Source: Oscillospiraceae bacterium (GTDB lineage: Bacteria; Bacillota; Clostridia; Oscillospirales; Ruminococcaceae). Taken from it: 64,000 bases of DNA. Positions within the stretch are counted from its first letter, which is position 1, and each line of letters opens with the position of its first letter. Positions 4,518 through 59,544 of this stretch are shown here, piece after piece. Location of the stretch: positions 1-64,000 of the forward strand of contig JAQXHC010000049.1 in the NCBI GenBank assembly GCA_029007035.1, given 5' to 3'. The notes under the pieces were generated by a model. The model worked only from the letters and a program-made list of their open reading frames with translations. It was not told where the DNA came from and ran no database searches. Position numbers and translations under genes: made by a program.

Positions 4518-4544
4518 TAAATGATTTTTTATGAGGTGACAATT

Positions 4545-5417
4545 ATGTTAAAAAAATGTGTGACTTTTATTGCGGCTGGAATCGTTGCTGCTTCCTGTAT
4601 GGCATTTACTGTGAGTGCTGCCGGTAATGAGACAGTTCCCGCTGCCGTTTATGCTTCCGAGAGCCTGAATAAGACGGCTTCCGAGGGTCAGATTACAATC
4701 AAGCTCAGTGCTGATGCTGAATATTTCAGCCTGCCTGCATTTACTCTGCTCTGTGGAGACACTGTTATCGGAGCAAAAAAGCTTGATGGTCTGGCGGGAG
4801 GAGCTAATTCATGGACATTCAAAAAGCTTGATACCGACAGCTCATATAAGCTCAAGGTCACCGTACCGAGCGGCTATCTCATTAACGGAAAATCTGAAAG
4901 CTTCACTCAGAGTGTAAGCGTCGGATCGACATACAGCTTTACTTTTAAAAAGCAGGAGACTCCCGAGACTGAGCCGCCTACGGAGGAAGAAACTACAACA
5001 AAACCTCAGGCAACCGAGCCAAAGCCGACTTCGCCTCCTGTAACCGACAGTCCCGAGGATAAGACCGAGCCGTCCAAGGAAGAGGATACTAAGCCTGCTG
5101 AGGAAGATAAGGGTTCCGATACCGATAAGAATGAAAGTGCTGAGACAACGGAATCATCCGAATCCGGCAATAGCAATCAGCAGTCGGACAGTGATAAGAA
5201 CACTTCCGACAAGAACAGCTCCAATAAAAATAATTCGGATAAAAACAGCTCAAACAAGAATAACTCCAATAAAAACGATTCCGACAAAAAGGATGACGGC
5301 AAGAAAGAGGATTCTGCTGATACCGGAGTTCAGCCGCCTTTTGTAGCTCTTGGAGCGCTTGGAGTTTGCGCTGTGATTGCAGGTGCTTGCGTTATCGGCA
5401 AGAAAAAGAACAAGTAA
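4545..5417 (+). CDS. Secreted/cell-surface protein with Thr/Glu/Pro- and Asn/Ser/Lys-rich linker and C-terminal anchor
   Basis: Signal peptide; SDKNSSNKNNSDKNSSNKNNSNKND low complexity; C-terminal DTG-hydrophobic-KKKNK sorting-like tail. Confidence 0.7.
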   Translation: MLKKCVTFIAAGIVAASCMAFTVSAAGNETVPAAVYASESLNKTASEGQITIKLSADAEYFSLPAFTLLCGDTVIGAKKLDGLAGGANSWTFKKLDTDSSYKLKVTVPSGYLINGKSESFTQSVSVGSTYSFTFKKQETPETEPPTEEETTTKPQATEPKPTSPPVTDSPEDKTEPSKEEDTKPAEEDKGSDTDKNESAETTESSESGNSNQQSDSDKNTSDKNSSNKNNSDKNSSNKNNSNKNDSDKKDDGKKEDSADTGVQPPFVALGALGVCAVIAGACVIGKKKNK

Positions 5418-10195: not shown

Positions 10196-13100
10196 ATGAA
10201 ATTCAGAAAGCTGATAAGCGCAGTAACCTCAATTGCACTTTCGTTTTCGGTGCTTTCGGGACTTAATTTCGTAAAGCCCGAAAAAAATATTACAGCTGAA
10301 GCGGCTGCGTCGTCGTGGAAATTTGATTTCGGCAACGGCGGAACTGCTTCGGGATTTACGGGAGTATCCGCATCAGAGGGATATTCCGCATCAAAAGGCT
10401 ATGGATTTGCTGAACCTGCCAATATGGCAGATGTTTCGGCTTCCGGTGCGAATGAGCTGAGCGATGCAGTTCAGTTCAAGAGTACATCGCTGACAAATAC
10501 GTTCAACGTGGATCTTGACAGAGGACTTTATCAGGTTACAGTTCATCTCGGCAACACCAACAGAACGACCGTCAGAGCGGAGGGAATGCTCCAGATCATA
10601 AACATGACAGGCAACAATGCCGTTGATACATTTCAGATTCCCGTAACCGACGGTCAGCTCAATATCATGGCGACCGAGGGTAAGGCAGGCTATGCATTTA
10701 CAATGAGCAGCCTTGAGATCACCAGAATTTCGTCTGATCCTGCAATGAAACCTACTATCTGGATTTGCGGAGATTCGACGGTCTGCAATTATTATCCGCT
10801 TGCAACAAGCGTTCAGGGCGGCTGGGGACAGATGCTCAATCAGTTTGTTGACACGAACGACTATGAGATACGCAATATGGCTGCGAGCGGTCAGTATGCA
10901 AAGGGCTTCGTGGATGCAGGTCAGTTCGACCCTATTGAGTATTATGGCAAGTCCGGAGATATTTATATTATTTCAATCGGAATAAATGATACCAATTACT
11001 CCAATGCCGATGAGTATTATACAACTGTGACCGACATGGTAAAACGTGCAAAAGCAAAGGGCATGGAGGTTATTCTTGTAAAGCAGCAGGGAAGAAACGG
11101 AGACTGTTCGAGAAATCCGCTGCTTACAGGCAGATGGTTCGGCACTCAGCTCGATACGATCGGCAGCGAGCAGAACTGTCAGGTTATTGATCTTTTCAAG
11201 CTGTGGCAGGATTACTGCCTTACACTCTCAGCTGACGCTGTTACAGCTCTTTACATGGACGGAGATACTCTGCATCCCAACAGAGCGGGCGCAATAAAGC
11301 TTGCGGAGCTTGTAGCGTCACAGATCAACTTCGGAGCTTCCGAGCCGCTGGTTGGTGCGGTAATGGATGAAAGCGCCGACTATATGTTCAGAAACGCCCA
11401 CAGCGGTCAGTATATGGAGGTTGCAAATGCTTCTGCCGCGGCAGGCACAAATGTTCAGCAGTGGGGAGCAGACAAACCTTCCGCTCATAATACGTGGACA
11501 GTAAAGGCTGCTTCTGACGGCTACTATTATATACTGTCCAATCTTGGTGACGGAGCTGCATATTATCTTGACATTGACTACGGAAAATCCGAAAACGGCA
11601 CCAATATAGGTATATACACCAACACTAATTCAGACGCTCAGCTTTTCAAATTCGTTGAAAACGACGACGGAACATACAAAATCGTCACAAAGGTATCTGA
11701 AGATAAGAGTGCGGTCGAGGTTGCAGGCGCGTCGGAGGAGAGCGGAGCGAACGTTCAGGAATGGGAGCTCAATGGTGCTGATTGTCAGAACTGGTATGCG
11801 GAAAAGGTAACATATCCCGAGCCGACAACCGTTCCCACGACCGAGCCGGTTACGACAGTAACCGCAACAGAGCCGCCGACAGCTCCTCCTCAGCTGAATT
11901 ATACACCCGGAGATGCGGACTGCAGCGGTGATGTGACTATTAATGACGTTGTTGTAATTCTCTGCTATGCAGCTGACGGCGATGCTTCTCCGCTTTCGGA
12001 GGATGCTTTGAGAAATGCTGACGTGTATCAGCAGGGAGACGGTGTAAATGCAAGCGATGCTGTAACGATTCAGAGGTATCTTGCAAAAATCATAGCTTCG
12101 TTCGACGTTAAAGTTCCGGAAATAACTGCAACCGCAACCGAAACAACAACCGCCGCTGAAGCTGTTCCCGAAATATACTATGCGATCGATGCAGAATACG
12201 TAAACGGTATAAGTGAAACGGTTAATACCGGCTACAAGGGTGACGCGTATGTTAACCTTGACAATACGACAAGCAGCTATATTACGTGGACTGTCAACGC
12301 TGCCAGAACAGGAAATTATCTTGTAATGATCAGGAATGCCAACGGCACGGACTCTGACCGGAAGATGAAAATTGAGGTCAACGGTGCATCGGATTACTGG
12401 GTTCAGTCCTTTATCGGCACAGGCAGCTGGACTGACTGGGCTGAAAGAGGAATCGTTCTTCCGCTCCGCGAAGGCAGCAATACAATTAAATTCACTTCGC
12501 TTACGGAAAACGGAGGTCCGAACTTAGACTACATAACGATCGAGCTGACCGATGAGCCGATTGCCGAAATATATATTCCCGACGAAGAACCCGATGTGCC
12601 TGTTTCCGATAAGCCTGTTATTTATATCGCCGGAGATTCAACGGTTCAGAGTTATCGGGAGAGCTATGCGCCGCAGCAGGGCTGGGGTTATTATCTTGGT
12701 GACTATTTCACCGATAACGTAACAGTTTCAAATCACTCGATTGCAGGACGAAGCTCCAAGAGCTTTTACGATAATGGCAGACTCCAGACAATTCTTGACG
12801 AAATGAAAGAGGGGGACTATCTGTTCGTTCAGTTTGCAATTAACGATTCAGCCGCAAGCAATGCTGAAAGATACGCTCCCGTCTGCGGAAATGTCGATAA
12901 TCCCACCGAGGGCTCATACGAGTTCTACATGGAAAAATACATTGAGGGTGCATTGGCAAAAGGCGGAACTCCCGTTCTTGTAACGACTGTTATCGGACTG
13001 AAAGCATATTCAAACGGTATGTTCGTAAACAGCTACGGAAACTATTGTCAGGCATGCAAGGATATGGCAGCGAAATACAGCATTCCCTGCATCGACCTCA

Positions 13101-13288
13101 ATACGCTTATGGTCGATCATTATAACTCGATCGGATATGATGCAGCATATAAGTATCATCTTATCGGCGCAGTTGAGGGTTCGACGGATATGACTCACTT
13201 TACTGAAACTGGTGCAAATGCGGTTGCCGGACTTGTTGCCGATGCAGTAAAGAAGCTTAATATTCCTCTTTCACAGTATGTAAAATAA
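10196..13288 (+). CDS. Multidomain secreted pectin esterase: SGNH (CE12-like) - ricin/CBM13 - dockerin - CBM35-like - SGNH (CE12-like)
   Basis: Two GDST...GxND...DxxH catalytic sets (WICGDSTVCNYY / GINDTN / DGDTLHPN and YIAGDSTVQSYR / AINDSA / DMTHFTETG); QQWGADKPSAHNTW ricin-like; dockerin GDADCSGDVTINDVVVILCYAA...ADVYQQGDGVNASDAVTIQRYLAK. Confidence 0.88.
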   Translation: MKFRKLISAVTSIALSFSVLSGLNFVKPEKNITAEAAASSWKFDFGNGGTASGFTGVSASEGYSASKGYGFAEPANMADVSASGANELSDAVQFKSTSLTNTFNVDLDRGLYQVTVHLGNTNRTTVRAEGMLQIINMTGNNAVDTFQIPVTDGQLNIMATEGKAGYAFTMSSLEITRISSDPAMKPTIWICGDSTVCNYYPLATSVQGGWGQMLNQFVDTNDYEIRNMAASGQYAKGFVDAGQFDPIEYYGKSGDIYIISIGINDTNYSNADEYYTTVTDMVKRAKAKGMEVILVKQQGRNGDCSRNPLLTGRWFGTQLDTIGSEQNCQVIDLFKLWQDYCLTLSADAVTALYMDGDTLHPNRAGAIKLAELVASQINFGASEPLVGAVMDESADYMFRNAHSGQYMEVANASAAAGTNVQQWGADKPSAHNTWTVKAASDGYYYILSNLGDGAAYYLDIDYGKSENGTNIGIYTNTNSDAQLFKFVENDDGTYKIVTKVSEDKSAVEVAGASEESGANVQEWELNGADCQNWYAEKVTYPEPTTVPTTEPVTTVTATEPPTAPPQLNYTPGDADCSGDVTINDVVVILCYAADGDASPLSEDALRNADVYQQGDGVNASDAVTIQRYLAKIIASFDVKVPEITATATETTTAAEAVPEIYYAIDAEYVNGISETVNTGYKGDAYVNLDNTTSSYITWTVNAARTGNYLVMIRNANGTDSDRKMKIEVNGASDYWVQSFIGTGSWTDWAERGIVLPLREGSNTIKFTSLTENGGPNLDYITIELTDEPIAEIYIPDEEPDVPVSDKPVIYIAGDSTVQSYRESYAPQQGWGYYLGDYFTDNVTVSNHSIAGRSSKSFYDNGRLQTILDEMKEGDYLFVQFAINDSAASNAERYAPVCGNVDNPTEGSYEFYMEKYIEGALAKGGTPVLVTTVIGLKAYSNGMFVNSYGNYCQACKDMAAKYSIPCIDLNTLMVDHYNSIGYDAAYKYHLIGAVEGSTDMTHFTETGANAVAGLVADAVKKLNIPLSQYVK

Positions 13289-34261: not shown

Positions 34262-37200
34262 TCATCCCCATGGGTTCTGGTTTCCGCTGCTGCCTGATGT
34301 GCTTACGGCAGTTCCACCGCTGATTGTTCCGTTTGCATATACAGACTGGGATGAATCAGAGGTAATCAGGTCAGTTCCGCCTGAAATCGTTCCGCCTGTG
34401 TAGCATTTAAGATTTGTATTATTGAGGGTTATATTGCCCATGCCCTGCATTGTTGTGAACGATACTACAACATTTCCCGAGGCGTCAGCGATTGTGAACT
34501 GAGTGTTTGCTGAAACAGTGCCTGTGGACTGTGAGGAAATCTCAGCGATTGTACCGCCTGTAAGGCTTTCGGAATAGCCGTCTCCGCAGTCAAGCGGCTC
34601 CTGACCGTTGGCAATTACACAGCCTCCGCTGATGTTGAGAGGACCATTTGAATCGAATGCATCATGGTCGCCGCTTGCAGACTGAACAATTGCAATACCG
34701 CCTGCTATAGTCAGCTGATTGCCGCCTGAGGTGCCGAAACCGCCGCCGGGATTCCAGCCGCCGGGAGAGCTATTACCTGAGCCGTCTGCGCCGCCTGCTG
34801 CATTATATCCGTCGTCGCCGGCTTTTACAACAACAGTACCGCTGTACTGATAGATATTATTGCCCTCTATTCCTTCGTAGCACTTAGTAACGTAAATTTC
34901 AAAATCGCTGTTTGCGCCGCCTTCTTTGCCGAGAGTAAAGTCGTTATCCGAATGGCATGCGTCATCTGCGGTAGCGAGATTCATTGCTCCTCCGAGGATA
35001 TTCATGTTTCCTCCGCAGTGGATACAGTCGTCAGAGGAATCAATGGTAATACTGCCGCCGTTGATGGTAATATTTCCGCCGCTCTGATATGTAGTTCCTG
35101 TTTCGTCGTAGAGTCCTACGGATTTGATACCCTTGGCGCTGATGTCAACCTTATTGCTGTTGCCGTCCATGCCGCCGCCGGGACCTCCCCAGCCGCCGGG
35201 ACCTCCCCAGCCGCCGGTGCTTCCGCCGCTTGCACTGCCTGTAAAGCCTGAACCCTGATATGTGTAGATATTAAGGCTGCCGCCGTTCATTGTGAAGTCC
35301 TGTTCTGCCTGTATACCGTCGGCATAAGCATTAATATCAATTGTACCGCCGTTGATCAGAACGAATCCCTTTCCTGTTTCGGTGCTTGTAGCTTTGATAC
35401 CGTCGCCGCTTGTAGTGGTCTTAACTGTAACATTAAGAGTGGAGAAGTCAGTGTCTGCAGCATCGCCGATTCTTACTGAATCGTTTCCTCTGATAGCGTC
35501 GTCAACTGCCGTTACATTGATAGTTCCGTTCCATATCTTAAGATCGTTTTTGCAGACGATTCCGTCTTCGGTATTACCGTTAACGATAAGCGTGCCTTTG
35601 CCCTTGAGCTTGAGGTCGTCTCTTGCAAAAATCGGAGCATTGACTGTAATTGTTTCGTTATCGCTGTTCACATATGTATCGGTATGAGATGTACCGTCGG
35701 AAATCGTATTAACAGTGCCGTCTTTGGCGGAAATCGCACATTCATCGCCGACATTTTCAACATAAATCGGGGCAACGCTGCTGTTTGAGAGTGTGAGTCC
35801 GTTGAGCGAGAGAGTAACGTAAGCCGCAGGCTCGGCGGTATCATCGGTATTTACGACGATCTGACCGTTTGAACAGTTTCCGCTGAAAGAATAGTCGCCT
35901 GATTTTGTAACAGTAACGGTTGTTCCGCTAACGGTCATGTTCTCGGCTGAATTGATGTCAACAGCTTCGCCTGCTGCATTGGCAAGTGTCACACCGCTGT
36001 CTGAGAAATTGACAGAAACGACAACATTATCGCCTGTACCCGGTGTGATAACCTCTCCGCCGCTGAGGATATCAACATTCTGATACTGAGTAACGGCGCC
36101 TGTATTGAGGAAGTTCGCATTCTTATCGGTTCCGTGACCAACCTGCTGACCGCCGACATATACGCTGTATGAACCGTCCGCAGAGAGGGAAGCGTCGCTG
36201 ATGAGAACATAGTCATATTTCTTGATCGGCGAGTATGTAAGTGAGCCTATGGTGATAGCGTTATCCTTTGTCCACTCCGCAGCCATATCGAGGAGCACAG
36301 TTGTCTGTGTTGTGCCGTCCGTGCTGATGAGCTCGTTGCCGTTAACCTGATAATCGGTAGCAGTTGCGATAACGGTACCGCCTGTGATGTTAAGCAGTCC
36401 GTTTGCGTCAAGACGTAAGCCTCTGTCGCCGCAGGCTGTGAGTGTACCGCCGGAAACATTTATTTCGAGAGCAGCCTGAACCGCATCGTTACCTGCCTTG
36501 ACATCGGCGGTTCCGCTGATCATGTAAATTGAACCGTCAGATTTGATACCGTCGGCAGAGGATTTGATCTGAATTGACGCTCCCTCGATTTCAATGTCCT
36601 TATCGGACTTGATAGCATCGGCATCACCGGCAAGAACTGCGTCGGTAGTGAGGTCATCGGTATTGACAACGATTGTTCCGCCGTTGAGGCTGATTTTCTT
36701 TTCGCTGTTGATACCGGCATTCATAGTGCTGTTGATATTGAGCGTACCGGTGCTGTTTTTAGTGATTGTAAGCTTGTTATTCGTAAAGATTACGCCGCTT
36801 TCGGTGTATGCAGCCGCAGCTGTATCGGTGAGAGTGTTAGTGCCGTTAACAGTGATCTTGGTTTTATCAGAGCCCGAAAGAGCAGTTGAATAGATGCACG
36901 GAGCGCTGCTGCCTGTCATTGTTACATCGTTAAGAACAATTTCGACCTCGCCGATGTCATCAGCGGGAGTTTCAACGATAATCTGACCGTCAGCAAGGTT
37001 GCCGTCTACGTGATAAACGCCGGAAGCTCCGATAGTAACCGTTTTGCCCTCAACAGTGAGATAATAGCCCTCGGTGGTGATTGAGTCAGTAAGGAGGTGG
37101 ATATATCCCTCATTTGCAACAGGTTCAACATCGCCCTCTTTATATGATTCAGGTAGAGAGGCAATCTGTTTTGCGAGATATTTCTGAATTGAAATAGCGT

Positions 37201-37468
37201 CGCTGGTGTTAACGCCGTCGCCTCTCTGGTAAACGTCCGAAGCGTTGAGCTGCTCGTCAGTCATAGGATTTGCATCGGCAGAAGCAGCATAGCACATAAT
37301 TGAAACAACATCGTTTACTGTGATGCTGCCGTCCAGATCAGCATCGCCGTATTTTACTTCCTCCGCTGCGGCAGAAACATTTGCTGCCGGAATGGACGGA
37401 AGTGCAGCCGCCAGAACGCACAGTGACGATATTCCGGCAAACAGCTTCCTGAATTTTCTGTTTTTCAT
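34262..37468 (-). CDS. Secreted dockerin protein with carbohydrate-binding/beta-helix (DUF4353-like) domains
   Basis: Signal peptide; N-terminal dockerin GDADLDGSITVNDVVSIMCYAA...ASDVYQRGDGVNTSDAISIQKYLAK; repeated GNxxxGQIxVxT...Lxxxxxx(S)SAPIY and DGIxxxxxxxIxxGxxxI repeats; Gly/Trp/Pro segment. Confidence 0.8.
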   Translation of the reverse strand: MKNRKFRKLFAGISSLCVLAAALPSIPAANVSAAAEEVKYGDADLDGSITVNDVVSIMCYAASADANPMTDEQLNASDVYQRGDGVNTSDAISIQKYLAKQIASLPESYKEGDVEPVANEGYIHLLTDSITTEGYYLTVEGKTVTIGASGVYHVDGNLADGQIIVETPADDIGEVEIVLNDVTMTGSSAPCIYSTALSGSDKTKITVNGTNTLTDTAAAAYTESGVIFTNNKLTITKNSTGTLNINSTMNAGINSEKKISLNGGTIVVNTDDLTTDAVLAGDADAIKSDKDIEIEGASIQIKSSADGIKSDGSIYMISGTADVKAGNDAVQAALEINVSGGTLTACGDRGLRLDANGLLNITGGTVIATATDYQVNGNELISTDGTTQTTVLLDMAAEWTKDNAITIGSLTYSPIKKYDYVLISDASLSADGSYSVYVGGQQVGHGTDKNANFLNTGAVTQYQNVDILSGGEVITPGTGDNVVVSVNFSDSGVTLANAAGEAVDINSAENMTVSGTTVTVTKSGDYSFSGNCSNGQIVVNTDDTAEPAAYVTLSLNGLTLSNSSVAPIYVENVGDECAISAKDGTVNTISDGTSHTDTYVNSDNETITVNAPIFARDDLKLKGKGTLIVNGNTEDGIVCKNDLKIWNGTINVTAVDDAIRGNDSVRIGDAADTDFSTLNVTVKTTTSGDGIKATSTETGKGFVLINGGTIDINAYADGIQAEQDFTMNGGSLNIYTYQGSGFTGSASGGSTGGWGGPGGWGGPGGGMDGNSNKVDISAKGIKSVGLYDETGTTYQSGGNITINGGSITIDSSDDCIHCGGNMNILGGAMNLATADDACHSDNDFTLGKEGGANSDFEIYVTKCYEGIEGNNIYQYSGTVVVKAGDDGYNAAGGADGSGNSSPGGWNPGGGFGTSGGNQLTIAGGIAIVQSASGDHDAFDSNGPLNISGGCVIANGQEPLDCGDGYSESLTGGTIAEISSQSTGTVSANTQFTIADASGNVVVSFTTMQGMGNITLNNTNLKCYTGGTISGGTDLITSDSSQSVYANGTISGGTAVSTSGSSGNQNPWG

Positions 37469-40591: not shown

Positions 40592-40764
40592 ATAAGAATG
40601 TGCACTATAACATGATTTGAATTAATTCAAGTACACAATAATGCACACCATGATTTATAATATTACAAAAACATCATAAAACAGGATAATAATTCATTGT
40701 AAATTAAAAATAAATATTGTATAATATAAAAAACATTCATATAAAGATCGGGAGGAATTGTATA

Positions 40765-43398
40765 ATGAAAAAGCTCAAAAAAGCCGCAGCATTTGCAGCT
40801 GGACTTGTGACGGCGATGTCATGCGTGTCCGGACGCATTGCACCAATAAGGAATAACTCCGCAAAAGCTGCTGCGGAATCCGTTCTTGCATTCCCGGGAG
40901 CTGTTGGCGGAGGGCGATACGCCACAGGCGGACGCGGCGGCGAAGTCGTGCATGTGACAAATCTTAACGACAGCGGAGCAGGCTCGTTCCGCGATGCAGT
41001 CAGCAAGCCGAACCGAATCGTTGTTTTTGACGTAAGCGGTACTATCGAGCTTGCGAGCAACATTCTTGTTTCCGACAATGTGACGATTGCCGGTCAGACA
41101 GCTCCGGGAGGCTCCGGAATCACACTGAAAAACTATAAACTCGGAATGAGCGGCAATAATATCATCTGCCGCTATCTCAGTTCCCGTCCGGGTCCCTACA
41201 TGGCGACCAGCAGCGGAAACGATGCCTGGGGCGGAGCAAAAGGCTCTAATTCGATTATCGATCACTGCTCCATGAGCTGGACGACCGACGAGCAGTGGGG
41301 ACTTTACTCCAATAACGAGTACTACACCGTTCAGTATTCGGTTATCGGTCCTGCTGATTCATGGGGCGGTCACAGCAAGGGAATACATGGCTTCGGACTG
41401 ATGATGGGCAAAGGCTACAGCACATTCGATCATAATCTTATCATACACAACGTATCAAGAAACTTCCGCGGCAAGGTCGTCGGTACAGAAACCGCCGATT
41501 TCACCAACAACGTTATTTATAACTGGGCATATCAGACAGCCTACGGTACAATCGGACATCTGAACTACGTCAACAATACGCTGAAGATGGGCAACGGCAC
41601 CACCGGAGGCAAGCACTATGTAAGCGTGGACAGCAGTACAAGTCCGCAGAATTTCAAGATATATCTTTCAGGCAACAGAATGCTCAATAAGGACGATTCT
41701 GTTTACGGAACAGTGACCTACGATAACTGGGCAGGAATTACAGTAAAGGACGGACTTGGAATAACCCTTGACGATCTGAAAAGCAGTTCTTCATTTACAA
41801 CCGAAGTCAACGGAGTGAATGTCTCGACTGCCCTCACAGCAGAAAGTGCAGAAGATTCCTATGCTCACGTATTATCCTATGCAGGCAACGGTATTTCACC
41901 AGATGCAAGAACCGATGTTGATAAACAGGCGGCGAACGAGGCTCTGACAGGTACCGGAAATCTCAGCGGCACCGCCGCGTATTCCGAAGCCGATGATGCG
42001 CAGAAAGAAAAGCTCGACAGCTATAAAATACAATGTGGAGTAACTTATACATATCCCTCTGCTGTACTCGAAAAGGCCATAACAGACTCTGACAATGATG
42101 GAATGCCTGATGAGTGGGAGCTTGCAAGAGGACTCAATCCCAACGACCCGGGTGATACAAACGGGGATTACTGCGGTCAGGGATACACAAACATCGAGTA
42201 CTATATCAATGACCTTACCGTTGATTCGTTCCCCGATGGAGTAGTAACTCCGTCCCCCGAAATGAGTATCGAAACAATTTCGGCATTTGAGACAATTGAA
42301 GCTGAGAATTTCAGCGAGCAGAGCGGAGTAACTACCGAGGACTGCTCCGAGGGCGGACAGAATGTGGGATATATCGAAAACGGGGATTATATCATGTTCC
42401 GCGGAGTCGACTTCGATAACGGCGCGAAGAGCTTTACTGCGCGGCTCGCAGGAGGAACTGCTGGAATTGAGCTGTACCTTGACAGGCTCACGGACCAACC
42501 TGTCGCCTCACTCAGCTTTAACGGAACGGACGGCTGGCAGAACTGGGAGAATGTTTCATTCAATATTCCGACGATTTCCGGAGTTCACAGTCTGTATATA
42601 AGGTTCACGGGAGGAGAGGGCTATCTCCTGAATATAAATAATTTTGTGTTCGGCAGAGACGCTGTCCCACTCAGCGGACGGCTTATCACTAACCTTGTTG
42701 TTAACGACAGTGATAACGCTTCCAGCTGGAAAATTGCTGAAAAAGCTTCAGCAGGCTCGCTTGTTTTCGGCGACCGTGATGTTACATTTACAGAGCTTCC
42801 GAATGAGCTTGACGGAGCTGAACAGATTCTGACTGCCTGCGATTCCAAGTATTACGAAGCAGAGCTTGCTTCGTTTACAGCAGGGGAGGATATTACGGTA
42901 TATGCAGGATTTGATGCAAGAGTATCGCCGCTTCCGTCGTGGCTCGCAGCCTGGAAGGAAACAGGACTGACCTGCACTAACTCAGGCGACGTTGTATTCA
43001 ATCTTTACAGGCTTGACGTTTCCAAAGGAGATACGGTCATCCTCGGCGCAAACGGACAGTCAGCCTCATGCGTGAATTATACTGTATTTGCAGTTGAAAG
43101 CTCATCTGTCGGACCGACTGAAGCTACAGAGCCTTCAACCGTGCCTGAAACCGACATTCCAACAACGGACAAAGAAATAATCTACGGCGATGCTGACAGC
43201 AGCATGGAAATCAACATTAATGACGTTGTAGCTGTAATGTGTTATGCAGCGGATCCCAGCGGCTCCACGATGACCGAAAGCGAGCTTGATGCCGCAGACG
43301 TATTTCAAAGAGGTGACGGAGTTAACGCAAGCGATGCTATTTCAATTCAGAAATATCTTGCTAAGGTGATAATGGCTCTGCCCGAATCGTGGAAATAA
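40765..43398 (+). CDS. Secreted pectate lyase (PL1-like) with CBM6-like and C-terminal dockerin domains
   Basis: FPGAVGGGRYATGGRGGEVVHVTNLNDSGAGSFRDAVSKPNRIVVFDVSGTI; TIEAENFSEQSGV...NGDYIMFRGVDF CBM6-like; GDADSSMEININDVVAVMCYAA...ADVFQRGDGVNASDAISIQKYLAK. Confidence 0.9.
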   Translation: MKKLKKAAAFAAGLVTAMSCVSGRIAPIRNNSAKAAAESVLAFPGAVGGGRYATGGRGGEVVHVTNLNDSGAGSFRDAVSKPNRIVVFDVSGTIELASNILVSDNVTIAGQTAPGGSGITLKNYKLGMSGNNIICRYLSSRPGPYMATSSGNDAWGGAKGSNSIIDHCSMSWTTDEQWGLYSNNEYYTVQYSVIGPADSWGGHSKGIHGFGLMMGKGYSTFDHNLIIHNVSRNFRGKVVGTETADFTNNVIYNWAYQTAYGTIGHLNYVNNTLKMGNGTTGGKHYVSVDSSTSPQNFKIYLSGNRMLNKDDSVYGTVTYDNWAGITVKDGLGITLDDLKSSSSFTTEVNGVNVSTALTAESAEDSYAHVLSYAGNGISPDARTDVDKQAANEALTGTGNLSGTAAYSEADDAQKEKLDSYKIQCGVTYTYPSAVLEKAITDSDNDGMPDEWELARGLNPNDPGDTNGDYCGQGYTNIEYYINDLTVDSFPDGVVTPSPEMSIETISAFETIEAENFSEQSGVTTEDCSEGGQNVGYIENGDYIMFRGVDFDNGAKSFTARLAGGTAGIELYLDRLTDQPVASLSFNGTDGWQNWENVSFNIPTISGVHSLYIRFTGGEGYLLNINNFVFGRDAVPLSGRLITNLVVNDSDNASSWKIAEKASAGSLVFGDRDVTFTELPNELDGAEQILTACDSKYYEAELASFTAGEDITVYAGFDARVSPLPSWLAAWKETGLTCTNSGDVVFNLYRLDVSKGDTVILGANGQSASCVNYTVFAVESSSVGPTEATEPSTVPETDIPTTDKEIIYGDADSSMEININDVVAVMCYAADPSGSTMTESELDAADVFQRGDGVNASDAISIQKYLAKVIMALPESWK

Positions 43399-43506: not shown

Positions 43507-44391
43507 TCAGGGATTATCATTATTCGGAGGAATAATGACAATAGCCTGCGAGCCCATGGAGGCAAAAGCGTCCTCGCAGTCGGCTCTGGGATAAGAGGTT
43601 ACCTTGTCCTCTGACATGGAATCGGAAAAATAAAAGCAATTATCGTCTGCTCCTATAAGCAGGAGCGCGTGTTCGGGACAGATAAACGTAAATTCATTTC
43701 CGTCTGGAAGAATCCAGCTTTTACCGGGATATGCTTTTTTCATACCGATTGTTGCCCATACAAGGACGGGGTTTCCCTTGGATGTATATTTTTTCGTCAG
43801 CTCATCAATTGAAGCAGCATCCTCGGCTCTGACAAAATAGCCCTCGGGAAGAGCCTTTTGAACTGCGCGGAGAATCACAGTGGAATAGCATCCGTAGCCG
43901 CTTGATGATTCCGGGTCGCCGATAAAATACTCCCACGGACTCTCTCCGTACATAATTCCGTCGTCTGCGGTACGGGGATAATCGGCGGTTGGCAGGCAGC
44001 TTCCGATAAATTCCGCAGCAGAGATATTAATTCCGTAGAACTGCATAAGCGAAACGGCGGCAACGCTTTCACAGCCGGTAGGGAAGTCATCAAGCTGATA
44101 CAAATGCGGAACATTTTTAATATAGCACTTTCTTTGTTCATTATTTTCACGCGCGGCAGAATGTTTTTCAGCTTCATCGGCAGAGGCGTCACTATAATTA
44201 TTGATCTGACAGTCGGATTCATCTGAACTGTAATCATAATGATCCGCGTCGGTATTAAATCTTTCGACAGTTTCAATTACCGCCGGCATATCCAAAATAC
44301 AATGACTCAGACAAAAAGCCGTTCCTGCTGCTGCGGCGGCAATAAATGTCAGAATCGCCGCGGCGTGTTTCTTTCTTTTTCTGCGTCCCAT
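43507..44391 (-). CDS. C39-like family peptidase (Peptidase_C39_2 type)
   Basis: N-terminal TM; PHLYQLDDFPTGCESVAAVSLMQFYGINIS; CPEHALLLIGADDNCFYFSDSM. Confidence 0.85.
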   Translation of the reverse strand: MGRRKRKKHAAAILTFIAAAAAGTAFCLSHCILDMPAVIETVERFNTDADHYDYSSDESDCQINNYSDASADEAEKHSAARENNEQRKCYIKNVPHLYQLDDFPTGCESVAAVSLMQFYGINISAAEFIGSCLPTADYPRTADDGIMYGESPWEYFIGDPESSSGYGCYSTVILRAVQKALPEGYFVRAEDAASIDELTKKYTSKGNPVLVWATIGMKKAYPGKSWILPDGNEFTFICPEHALLLIGADDNCFYFSDSMSEDKVTSYPRADCEDAFASMGSQAIVIIPPNNDNP

Positions 44392-53534: not shown

Positions 53535-53680
53535 TCATTATCATAACAGGTATTATTTCATGACCGTTTCCGTACATCAGCATACAGGCATACGGCAAAG
53601 GCGACTGGTAAATAATAACTGACTGCCGGTTCCTTTATGTGACAATACTGTGAGATTTATGTTACAATTTGATAATTTGC

Positions 53681-53709
53681 TTGACAAGAAAAATCTCGTT
53701 GTGTATAAT
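53681..53709 (+). promoter_or_regulatory. Consensus promoter TTGACA-N17-TATAAT for the lipoprotein pair
   Basis: TTGACA 53681-53686; TATAAT 53704-53709. Confidence 0.8.
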
Positions 53710-53760: not shown

Positions 53761-54675
53761 ATGAAATTCAGAAGAAATAAAACAGCTGTTTTTCTTGCAT
53801 CGCTGCTTATCGCAATGACGATTTCAGGCTGTAAGGATAAAAATAATAAACAGCAGAGCGAGAGCGTTCCCGATGAAATCCTGCGCCAGCCGTTTACGTT
53901 CAGCTTTGACGAGGATACGACTGTACCGGGCTCTGCCGGAAACAATGCTGAGCTTAATGCACAGGATCCTACAGCTCCGAAAGCAACGACGGCTGAAGAG
54001 CAGACAAATCAGGGCGGCAGCACAGTGTATGTAGAAGTTACCGACGCTTCCGGACAGACTGTTACTCAGTATGTTCCCGTAACGGACGCATCGGGAGTTC
54101 AGGCAACTGAGAACGACGGCGAACCTAAAACCGAGTCTGTAGCTGTAACAGAGGCTGTATCGTCAGTTCCGGATAGTACCGGCGAGTCGGCTCAGAATGG
54201 TACGCAATCCGAAAATACAACAAATCCGCCGTCAACGGAGAAAGTCACGAATTATAAAACAGGAAAGACCTATTGGTTCGATATCTCAAAGGGCGAGGAC
54301 TTCGTGTTTAACGGAGATTTTGTTTCCATGACATTCAAGGTCAATGAAAATGTTCCCGACGGAATTTATGATATCGAGATTGTAAAACCGGATTTTGCAA
54401 ATTATGCCGGTGAGACCGTTAAGCCGAAAAATTCCGTCAATGCGCGTATTTATGTTAATACCGACGGCGCGTCAACAAAGGATTACGATGACGGCTTCAG
54501 CATCTACGGTCAGGAAGTATCATGCCGTGCAGGAGACGAGGTTACGGTTAATTTCAGGCTTTCCAACAATCCCGGTGTATGCGCTGTAATATTCAAATTC
54601 AGGTATGACGCAGATGTTCTGGAACTTAAAGACTGTTCTCCGGTAGGTGAATATGCCGAAATTCAAACAAAGTAG
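53761..54675 (+). CDS. Lipoprotein with Thr/Val-rich repeats and cohesin-like (apparently permuted) C-terminal domain
   Basis: Lipobox MTISGC; VSMTFKVNENVPDGIYDIEI followed by AGDEVTVNFRLSNNPGVCAVIFKFRYDADVLEL. Confidence 0.7.
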   Translation: MKFRRNKTAVFLASLLIAMTISGCKDKNNKQQSESVPDEILRQPFTFSFDEDTTVPGSAGNNAELNAQDPTAPKATTAEEQTNQGGSTVYVEVTDASGQTVTQYVPVTDASGVQATENDGEPKTESVAVTEAVSSVPDSTGESAQNGTQSENTTNPPSTEKVTNYKTGKTYWFDISKGEDFVFNGDFVSMTFKVNENVPDGIYDIEIVKPDFANYAGETVKPKNSVNARIYVNTDGASTKDYDDGFSIYGQEVSCRAGDEVTVNFRLSNNPGVCAVIFKFRYDADVLELKDCSPVGEYAEIQTK

Positions 54676-54738
54676 TCACGAGCTGTTTAAGAAAACATAC
54701 CGTACTCTTTGTGAATAATGTCAGAAAGGAAAATAAAA

Positions 54739-55635
54739 ATGAATAACAAATTCAGACGTACCGCCGCAGTATTTGCAGCGATTCTTGCAGCCACAATGGT
54801 AGCGTCGGGCTGCGCAGATAAAAAAAATAAAAATGAATCATCAGAGGAGATAATTCTGAAGCTTCCGCTTGAATTTAATTATAATCAGAATTCTGACAGC
54901 GACGAGCTCAACGCAGCAGACCCGACAGGTTCAGGAGCACAAAACGGCGGATATGTTGTCGTAACCGAGCCGAACGGTCAGCCCGTTACCGAATATATCA
55001 ACGTAACCGATGCCAACGGCGAACCTGTAACACAGATTGTCGAGGTTACAAATGCTTCCGGAGAGGTCGAGAAGGACGCTTCCGGACAGCCTGTTACAAA
55101 GGTAGTTGAAGTTACCGAAGCTGCTGAAAAGACTGAAGCAGGCGGTTCATCATACAGTGCAAAGATCGACAGTGCAAACATTCAGTGGGTTGATATTTCA
55201 ACCGGCAAGGATTTTGTATTCAACGACAATTTCTTTACCGTATATTTCAAGGTTAAGGACACGGCAGCTGACGGAGTTTATGATATCAAAATAACCGAGC
55301 CGTCGTTTTCAAGCATTGTTAATGGCGGTACAGTCGTTGTAGCTGATAAAATTATGGACGGAAAGGTATTTATTTCCACCGACGCAGAGGAGCAGCCTTC
55401 TGTTCCCGACAGCGGATTTACAATGTATACCGATTATATTGCCTGCAAGCAGGGCGATGAAATTCAGCTTTCTTTCAATATGAAGAATAATCCGGGTATT
55501 GTCGGAATGAACTTCTGGTTCGAATACGATAAGAATGCTCTTGAAATCGTAAGGGGCAGAGCCTCCGGAGATTACGCTGAAATCGCAAACGCTGATTTCC
55601 ATGAAAATCCGCAGAATACCGAGGCAAAAAAGTAA
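54739..55635 (+). CDS. Lipoprotein paralogue with PVT-repeat linker and cohesin-like (apparently permuted) C-terminal domain
   Basis: Lipobox VASGC; FTVYFKVKDTAADGVYDIKI followed by QGDEIQLSFNMKNNPGIVGMNFWFEYDKNALEIV. Confidence 0.7.
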   Translation: MNNKFRRTAAVFAAILAATMVASGCADKKNKNESSEEIILKLPLEFNYNQNSDSDELNAADPTGSGAQNGGYVVVTEPNGQPVTEYINVTDANGEPVTQIVEVTNASGEVEKDASGQPVTKVVEVTEAAEKTEAGGSSYSAKIDSANIQWVDISTGKDFVFNDNFFTVYFKVKDTAADGVYDIKITEPSFSSIVNGGTVVVADKIMDGKVFISTDAEEQPSVPDSGFTMYTDYIACKQGDEIQLSFNMKNNPGIVGMNFWFEYDKNALEIVRGRASGDYAEIANADFHENPQNTEAKK

Positions 55636-55677: not shown

Positions 55678-55715
55678 AGCCGCTGGAGAATTATTCTTCA
55701 GCGGCGGTTTATTAT
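55678..55715 (+). terminator. Intrinsic terminator
   Basis: GCCGCTG(G)AG-loop-CTTCAGCGGCGGTTTATT. Confidence 0.6.
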
Positions 55716-57421: not shown

Positions 57422-58627
57422 ATGAAGGTCAGCGGAATAATCTGCGAATACAATCCGTTTCACAACGGACATCTTTACCACATCAGAGAAACAAGGAAAA
57501 ACGGAGCGACTCATGTTGTTGCGGTTATGAGCGGAAACTTCGTACAGCGCGGCGATACAGCCATTATTGACAAAATTGACAGGGCACGCCTTGCTGTAAA
57601 ATCGGGGGCGGACCTCATAATCGAGCTTCCGGTACAGTACAGTCTTTCATCTGCTGAAAATTTTGCAAACGGAGCGATATGGCTGCTGAAATCTCTTGGA
57701 GTTGTTGAGGAGCTTTCATTCGGCAGCGAGTGCGGAGACGTTGAAAAGCTTAAAAAAGCTTTGGAAATAACCGACTCTGCTGCGAAAACACACCGTGACG
57801 AAATACTTGGAATAATGGAAAAGGGGTATACATATCCAAGAGCGCTCAGCTCGGTTATAAACGGAATCGACAGTGAAGCAGCAGCAGTAATTTCCGAACC
57901 GAATAATCTGCTTGCCATAGAGTATATGCGCGCACTTGAACGGTTTGCTCCCGCAATAAAGCCGTTTACCGTCAGAAGAACAGGGGCTGCTCACGACGGC
58001 GCGCCGGTCAGCGACGCATACGCAAGCGCGTCATATATCCGCGAGCTTATTTCATCCGGTCAGTACGGAGAGGGAAAGCTTTCGCAGTATACAACTCAGA
58101 TATGGGCGCAGGCGGTTTCAAATGCTGTAAGAAACGGCGAATCTGCCGATATATCGCGTCTTGAACGGATCATACTCTATAAGCTCAGAACCTCATCGCC
58201 AAAGGAACTTGCGTCAGTAAGTGACGTAGGACAGGGATTTGAGAATCGCCTCATCAGTTCAAGAATGGCAGGTTCACTGGACGAGCTTTTCGTAACGCTT
58301 AAGACGAAACGCTATACCATGGCTCGTATCAGGAGAATCCTGCTGTGTATGCTTATCGGAATCACAAGGAGCGATATGACTCATCTTCCGCCGTATGGAA
58401 GAATTCTCGCACTGAATGAAAGGGGAAAAGAGATACTTGCACTTGCAAAAGGCAAGGCTTCAATTCCGTTTGCAACGTCAATTTCAAAGCTGTCGCAGAA
58501 GAACCCGACGGCGCGCAGATTTGCGGAGCTTGAAATCAGAGCCTCCGATATTTACGGACTTGCGCTGGGAACTATAAATTCAGCGCAAAAGGATTATAAA
58601 GCGAAAATAATGATCGATTTGGAGTAG
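57422..58627 (+). CDS. tmcAL: tRNA(Met) cytidine acetate ligase (nucleotidyltransferase family, YlbM-like)
   Basis: VSGIICEYNPFHNGHLYHIRETRKNGATHVVAVMSGNFVQRGDTAIIDKIDRARLAVKSGADLIIELP. Confidence 0.95.
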   Translation: MKVSGIICEYNPFHNGHLYHIRETRKNGATHVVAVMSGNFVQRGDTAIIDKIDRARLAVKSGADLIIELPVQYSLSSAENFANGAIWLLKSLGVVEELSFGSECGDVEKLKKALEITDSAAKTHRDEILGIMEKGYTYPRALSSVINGIDSEAAAVISEPNNLLAIEYMRALERFAPAIKPFTVRRTGAAHDGAPVSDAYASASYIRELISSGQYGEGKLSQYTTQIWAQAVSNAVRNGESADISRLERIILYKLRTSSPKELASVSDVGQGFENRLISSRMAGSLDELFVTLKTKRYTMARIRRILLCMLIGITRSDMTHLPPYGRILALNERGKEILALAKGKASIPFATSISKLSQKNPTARRFAELEIRASDIYGLALGTINSAQKDYKAKIMIDLE

Positions 58628-58632
58628 TGACA

Positions 58633-59544
58633 TTGAAAAAAACACTTATTGCTATAATTTCCGTCGTCATCTGTGCTGCCGGATTTGGATGTACATCGAC
58701 GGTTCAGCCTATGGATGAAAACCCAACGGTTTCGGGAACTGCACCTGTACCGTCTGAAACAACGGCTCCGGCCGCAACAGAGGTTCCGACAGAACCGCCA
58801 ACAGAAGTCCCGACCGAGCCTCTTGAAATGCCAATTGACTATGAACTTCCGTCATCAGCGGAGATAAAGGCAGAGGCTGTTCTGCAGAAACCGGAACTTC
58901 CGACGGGCTGCGAGGTTACGGCACTTTGTACGCTGCTAAATTATCTTGGATTCAGCATCGACAAGGAGACTCTGTTTGATGATTTTATGCCGCACACGTC
59001 AAATGCCGACTGTACCTTTGATGATAAATATATCGGTGATCCGAGAGCGGATAACGGTTTTGGATGCAATGCTCCCGTTGTAGCTGAAACTGCTGAAAAT
59101 TATCTGAAATCGGTAAATTCCGATATGCGGGTGATGAATCTCACAGGCACTCCGTTCAGAGAGCTTTTCTATCAGATTGAGCAGGGGCGTCCTGTCGTTA
59201 TCTGGGGAAGCGTCAACATGAGGGACGTCACTTTCAAGCTTCGCTGGACGACACAGGACGGCAGGGAAGCATGGTTTGCAACTCTTGAGCATTGTCTTGT
59301 TCTGACCGGATATGATATTAATAACGGAATCGTTTATGTATGTGACCCATTAAAGGGAAATACCGAATATTCGCTTGAACGTGCCGAGAGTGTCTATGAC
59401 CAGATGGGACAGCAGGCGGTAATAATTTACGGAGATAATGAAATTAATTCCGAGCCTGACAACGTAAATACTGAAATACGCGAAATGGCCGCAATGGAAA
59501 GGGAGCGTCAGGCTGCTGTAAACGAGGAGATAAACGATGATTAA
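58633..59544 (+). CDS. C39-like family peptidase lipoprotein
   Basis: Lipobox AAGFGC; KPELPTGCEVTALCTLLNYLGFSIDKETLF; LEHCLVLTGYD; TTG start at 58633 (alternative GTG 58627). Confidence 0.85.
   Translation: MKKTLIAIISVVICAAGFGCTSTVQPMDENPTVSGTAPVPSETTAPAATEVPTEPPTEVPTEPLEMPIDYELPSSAEIKAEAVLQKPELPTGCEVTALCTLLNYLGFSIDKETLFDDFMPHTSNADCTFDDKYIGDPRADNGFGCNAPVVAETAENYLKSVNSDMRVMNLTGTPFRELFYQIEQGRPVVIWGSVNMRDVTFKLRWTTQDGREAWFATLEHCLVLTGYDINNGIVYVCDPLKGNTEYSLERAESVYDQMGQQAVIIYGDNEINSEPDNVNTEIREMAAMERERQAAVNEEINDD

Follow-up and report, generated by a model that had tools for sequence, protein, structure and literature searches.

Lipoproteins of dockerin-rich ruminococcal genomes end in a circularly permuted cohesin

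We identified, in a Ruminococcus-like gut bacterium, two paralogous lipoproteins that each end in one cohesin, in which the C-terminal half (strands 5-9) precedes the N-terminal half (strands 1-4). Cohesins are the socket modules of cellulose-degrading cellulosomes, and dockerins are the matching plug modules. The two genes are co-directional on the + strand of the 64,000-nucleotide stretch of DNA that was analysed (hereafter the window), at 53761-54675 and 54718-55635, and their proteins are 41 percent identical. Altogether, we consider it likely that these proteins are membrane-tethered, circularly permuted cohesins that hold dockerins. The features of the gene pair are as follows:

53681..53709, + strand: promoter-like TTGACA-N17-TATAAT, sigma-70-type, 12/12 consensus positions (consensus match only)
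53761..54675, + strand: gene 1, lipoprotein with permuted cohesin, 304 aa (ORF, sequence, PF00963)
53761..53832, + strand: gene 1 signal peptide and lipobox, acylated Cys at residue 24 (sequence)
53833..54267, + strand: gene 1 flexible linker, rich in Thr/Val/Glu/Ser (sequence)
54268..54465, + strand: gene 1 cohesin C-terminal half (strands 5-9), which comes first (half-HMM scan)
54466..54489, + strand: gene 1 linker from strand 9 to strand 1 (half-HMM scan, rotation scan)
54490..54645, + strand: gene 1 cohesin N-terminal half (strands 1-4), which comes second (PF00963, half-HMM scan)
54718..55635, + strand: gene 2, lipoprotein with permuted cohesin, 305 aa as first ORF (ORF, sequence, PF00963)
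55183..55383, + strand: gene 2 cohesin C-terminal half, which comes first (phmmer against PDB, half-HMM scan)
55384..55410, + strand: gene 2 linker from strand 9 to strand 1 (half-HMM scan, rotation scan)
55411..55566, + strand: gene 2 cohesin N-terminal half, which comes second (PF00963, phmmer, half-HMM scan)
55679..55705, + strand: intrinsic-terminator-like hairpin, 12 pairs, 3′ of gene 2 (consensus match only)

The lipobox, the Thr/Val/Glu-rich linker and the C-terminal domain of about 130 aa that had been described from the sequence were recovered in both open reading frames. The lipoboxes read TISGC and VASGC, as expected of bacterial lipoproteins, and the linkers contain VTDxxGxPVT repeat units. 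A GTG at 53650 was rejected as the start of gene 1 and the true start is the ATG at 53761, while for gene 2 the ATG at 54739 is likelier than that at 54718 because AGAAAGG lies directly upstream of it. With a promoter match before gene 1 and a terminator-like hairpin after gene 2, the pair resembles an operon of two genes, as judged from these consensus matches.

The original prediction that the halves of a cohesin are swapped in both paralogues was borne out beyond chance by searches with PF00963 and by phmmer against the PDB. The window proteins each matched PF00963 in two stretches, with 30.6 and 35.3 bits (E-values of 4.4e-7 and 1.6e-8), both above the curated cut-off of 24.1 bits, and ten domains of the family scored 37 to 57 bits. 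Single-sequence phmmer searches matched both halves of the cohesins 4ums, 3ul4 and 1aoh, in swapped order. A family profile built from 28 members in native order likewise retrieved 3kcp, 1aoh, 3ul4 and 4ums in swapped stretches with E-values of 1e-11 to 2e-13, the best matches being 3kcp (1.8e-13) and 1aoh (1.9e-13). Once the halves were re-ordered, the PF00963 score was higher in 10/10 members tested and the match became one full-length stretch (at best 2-139 of 139); similarly, positions 6-140 of the re-ordered family profile matched 4ums 5-150 in a single stretch (4.5e-14). Thus, all the elements of the module (strands 1-9) are present, with coverage of up to 2-139 of 139 for PF00963 and 5-150 for 4ums, and their linear order departs from the canonical one in the PF00963 and PDB searches as well as in the rotation scan. 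A full match to PF00963 with swapped strand order makes the domain a circularly permuted cohesin and not a standard member of PF00963. In the profile search, no unrelated family was matched in native order, the outcome that had been named as speaking against a cohesin.

The rotation scan, in which domains were rotated in 5-residue steps against a profile of canonical ruminococcal modules only, gave the same picture. For all 47 non-redundant family domains, the optimum was no more than 5 residues away from the middle of the internal linker, and the median single-domain score rose from 35.8 to 75.2 bits at the best rotation. All 55 canonical modules, scored with control profiles from which their own locus was left out each time, were best at their native start; these canonical modules had been chosen with a profile of re-ordered permutants, and the PF00963 and PDB searches, which are free of that selection, led to the same outcome. 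The swapped order, with a linker of 8-17 aa between the halves, was found in 47/47 of the non-redundant relatives examined. Chance or composition as the source of the swapped match is rejected by the E-values and the rotation controls, and a frame error or truncation by the conservation of the swapped order in relatives from ten genera. The original prediction had left the choice between a circularly permuted and a bisected cohesin; the independent profiles, the family-wide conservation, the structure model and the rotation scan together with its control all speak strongly for the former, and there is no need for the bisected or truncated reading, as the two pieces cover the whole cohesin profile and do not overlap.

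A structure model had been proposed as a check. AlphaFold2, given the domain of gene 2 in native order with 28 sequences, predicted a single, confident all-beta domain (pLDDT 89.7, pTM 0.82) whose strands correspond to those of a cohesin, in the order 5, 6, 7/8, 9, 1, 2, 3, 4 as assigned by sequence alignment. In Foldseek, whose comparison depends on chain order, this model had no match with E < 0.001 and no cohesin was present among the 50 best matches listed. In contrast, a canonical ScaC-like cohesin of the same genome retrieved R. flavefaciens ScaC at 3e-19, with cohesins throughout the list, and this from a less confident model (pLDDT 83). Such a contrast is what a permutation predicts. 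From sequence homology and the list of strands in the model, the permuted module very probably has the cohesin fold, a nine-strand jelly-roll barrel, in three dimensions.

We surveyed 299 genomes of the same family-level group and counted permuted cohesins in 32 of them, a count that includes weak or partial matches (a second copy in G107, and G175 at a contig end). These genomes belong to ten genera (g1, g6, g27, g28, g55, g86, g97, g107, g109 and g118), every sampled member of which has a permuted cohesin, and the named records are Ruminococcus and Oscillospiraceae MAGs, mostly labelled herbivore gut or rumen. At least 20 dockerin matches were found in all 32 carrier genomes and also in ten genomes without a permuted cohesin. 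The family is therefore present in 32/42 dockerin-rich genomes versus 0/257 others or, by genus, in 10/20 versus 0/106, some dockerin-rich genera being without it; the corresponding Fisher p-values of 1e-34 and about 1e-9 are both inflated by the relatedness of the genomes. The strict lipobox pattern was found in 46/47 family members, the remaining one reading VSGFGC. Conserved operon partners were absent from the 20 neighbourhoods inspected, which also had no conserved tie to the sca cluster, and NCBIfam holds no model for the family. A wider taxonomic spread was considered and rejected: most of the class-level full-span matches fall in long scaffoldin frames and, judged from frame lengths and match layout, appear to be tandem cohesins of canonical order in which the match spans the border of two modules.

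The genome of the window has 63 dockerin matches at E<=10 and canonical cohesins in an apparent sca cluster. Three dockerin proteins had been predicted in the window. Those at 10196 and 34262 carry divergent dockerins (14.2 and 13.5 bits, below the Pfam cut-off), while the third (40717) has a C-terminus that is dockerin-like by eye, with no Pfam match. These internal or terminal dockerin-like modules are part of a GDSL-lipase/ricin-lectin protein (10196-13288), a Cthe_2159-like protein (34262-37468) and a CBM6 protein (40717-43398). Since they fall below the Pfam Dockerin_1 cut-off or are unmatched, Pfam-based dockerin counts are too low here. Elsewhere in the window, the proteins encoded at 58627-59544 and 43507-44391 both have a C39-like peptidase domain (PF13529), and the first of them is a lipoprotein by its lipobox and has a Thr/Pro/Glu-rich linker. 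The 298-aa product of 4521-5417, which is predicted to be secreted, is unmatched in Pfam at E<=0.001.

As to the origin of the permutation, a core of 41 permutants forms one clade (98 percent SH-aLRT), and for the permutants as a whole a single origin is neither demonstrated nor rejected (AU p 0.33). Canonical scaffoldins are also matched by the native-order profile, at places where two modules adjoin (for example G574, 18-137 of 145, 1.6e-17). Such matches in tandem scaffoldins would fit a permutation in which a module was duplicated and the outer halves were lost. In genus g97, one to three permuted-order genes come directly after a gene for a cohesin lipoprotein of canonical order (L098 1901-3600, - strand; L099 1930-3668, - strand; L100 696-4880, + strand), an arrangement that offers a natural setting to study the rise of the permutation. 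Two further loci (L086 1238-5515 and L087 1968-2954) encode canonical-order cohesins with unusually high scores against the re-ordered permutant profile (83-101 bits), which are possibly the nearest canonical kin of the permutants. The 1103-aa protein of L086 has a dockerin-like C-terminus too.

We propose the following role for these proteins. Each protein would be lipid-anchored at the cell surface, where a long flexible linker carries one complete permuted cohesin at its far end. The chain of this module runs through strands 5-6-7-8-9, a linker of 8-17 aa and strands 1-2-3-4, and its new termini lie in the former strand 4/5 loop; it most likely folds into the ordinary nine-strand cohesin barrel. 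The module would probably bind the dockerins of enzymes or scaffoldins that the cell itself secretes and thereby hold them at the membrane. The lipobox, the long flexible linker and the C-terminal position of the module suggest display from the membrane, and a receptor that is both membrane-anchored and dockerin-binding is plausible, being backed by the co-occurrence with dockerin-rich genomes. Homology and co-occurrence make dockerin binding reasonably probable; for membrane-proximal capture as the role, we see the balance as even. Dockerins bind cohesins on strands 8-3-6-5. The tether would join at strand 5, beside this sheet, rather than at strand 1 or 9, and the attachment geometry may therefore matter. 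Force-dependent binding has been described for the anchoring complex of R. champanellensis (PMC7456326). More speculatively, and with considerable doubt on our part, the permuted cohesins could have been selected as a distinct, near-universal class of membrane receptors of ruminococcal cellulosomes, in which the strand-5 tether alters the orientation and force path of the cohesin-dockerin bond or its specificity, and which would add a membrane capture step absent from current cellulosome models.

The main competing explanation, which we regard as possible and clearly less probable than dockerin binding, is that the permuted cohesin-like barrel no longer binds dockerins and has a different function at the surface, for example self-association or the binding of envelope or glycans. 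This would agree with the variation, across the permuted family, of beta-3 positions that we take to be dockerin contacts in type I cohesins, and with the non-cellulosomal cohesin-fold modules among the Foldseek matches of the control (for example 2xdh from Archaeoglobus). However, the family is confined to dockerin-rich genomes, and no sampled member of the ten genera concerned is without it.

The adjacent, co-directional genes of the window, and the tandem copies in L051 and L100, could also be read as truncated half-cohesins that are completed between molecules, by strand-swapped dimers or by both paralogues together. Each protein nonetheless has one of each half, which together tile the profile, many genomes yielded a single copy only, the monomer model is confident over the whole domain and the short linker is conserved; such completion is thus quite improbable. 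Even less credible, to the point of being nearly negligible, are functionless decayed remnants of a tandem-cohesin scaffoldin, made of the C half of one module and the N half of the next. While the match across scaffoldin module borders (G574) shows a possible route to such a unit, the open frames, the lipoboxes and the domain are conserved across ten genera, and both the well-supported 41-member clade and the confident fold argue against decay.

Cohesin-dockerin pairs are model systems in enzyme-scaffold engineering and in the study of protein binding that is tight and mechanically strong. A natural permutant that has been conserved indicates that the cohesin barrel tolerates new termini next to its binding face, and offers an existing part whose attachment geometry is different. 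The family also suggests that ruminococcal cellulosomes have a conserved component anchored in the membrane, which inventories using full-length canonical cohesin profiles would register only as weak half-matches. In the titles and passages of the open-licence literature that we searched, we found no published report of a natural circularly permuted cohesin. In R. flavefaciens FD-1, ScaK, ScaL, ScaM, ScaN and ScaP were described as putative divergent cohesins and left untested as too divergent (PMC5301203, PMC4081043); the main text of these two papers makes no mention of a permutation. From their description, some of these five proteins might be permutants.

Compared with known systems, the permuted module has significant whole-module homology and corresponding model strands to the type I cohesins CipA of C. 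thermocellum (1aoh), OlpA (3ul4) and P. cellulosolvens ScaB (4ums). It differs from the type I cohesins of PF00963 by a chain order that is permuted at the strand 4/5 loop and by a new linker of 8-17 aa from strand 9 to strand 1. Like R. flavefaciens proteins of the ScaC/ScaE type (5lxv; own-genome homologue G000:C36:46220), the permutants are small, single-cohesin proteins of ruminococcal cellulosome genomes. However, the ScaC/ScaE-type proteins keep the canonical order, and the ScaC-like protein of the same genome combines a dockerin with a conventional signal peptide, whereas a permutant is a lipoprotein whose chain ends in the cohesin. The architecture with a lipobox, a flexible linker and one C-terminal cohesin is shared with canonical-order cohesin lipoproteins, namely L006 (1207-1962, G000:C35:24454; 252 aa, below the Pfam cut-off) in the genome of the window and the upstream genes of L098, L099 and L100 in g97. 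While these proteins have the N-to-C order and fall outside the core permutants in a quick tree, that of L100 has the same VTDxxG linker units as the permutants, and the canonical genes of g97 adjoin the permuted ones.
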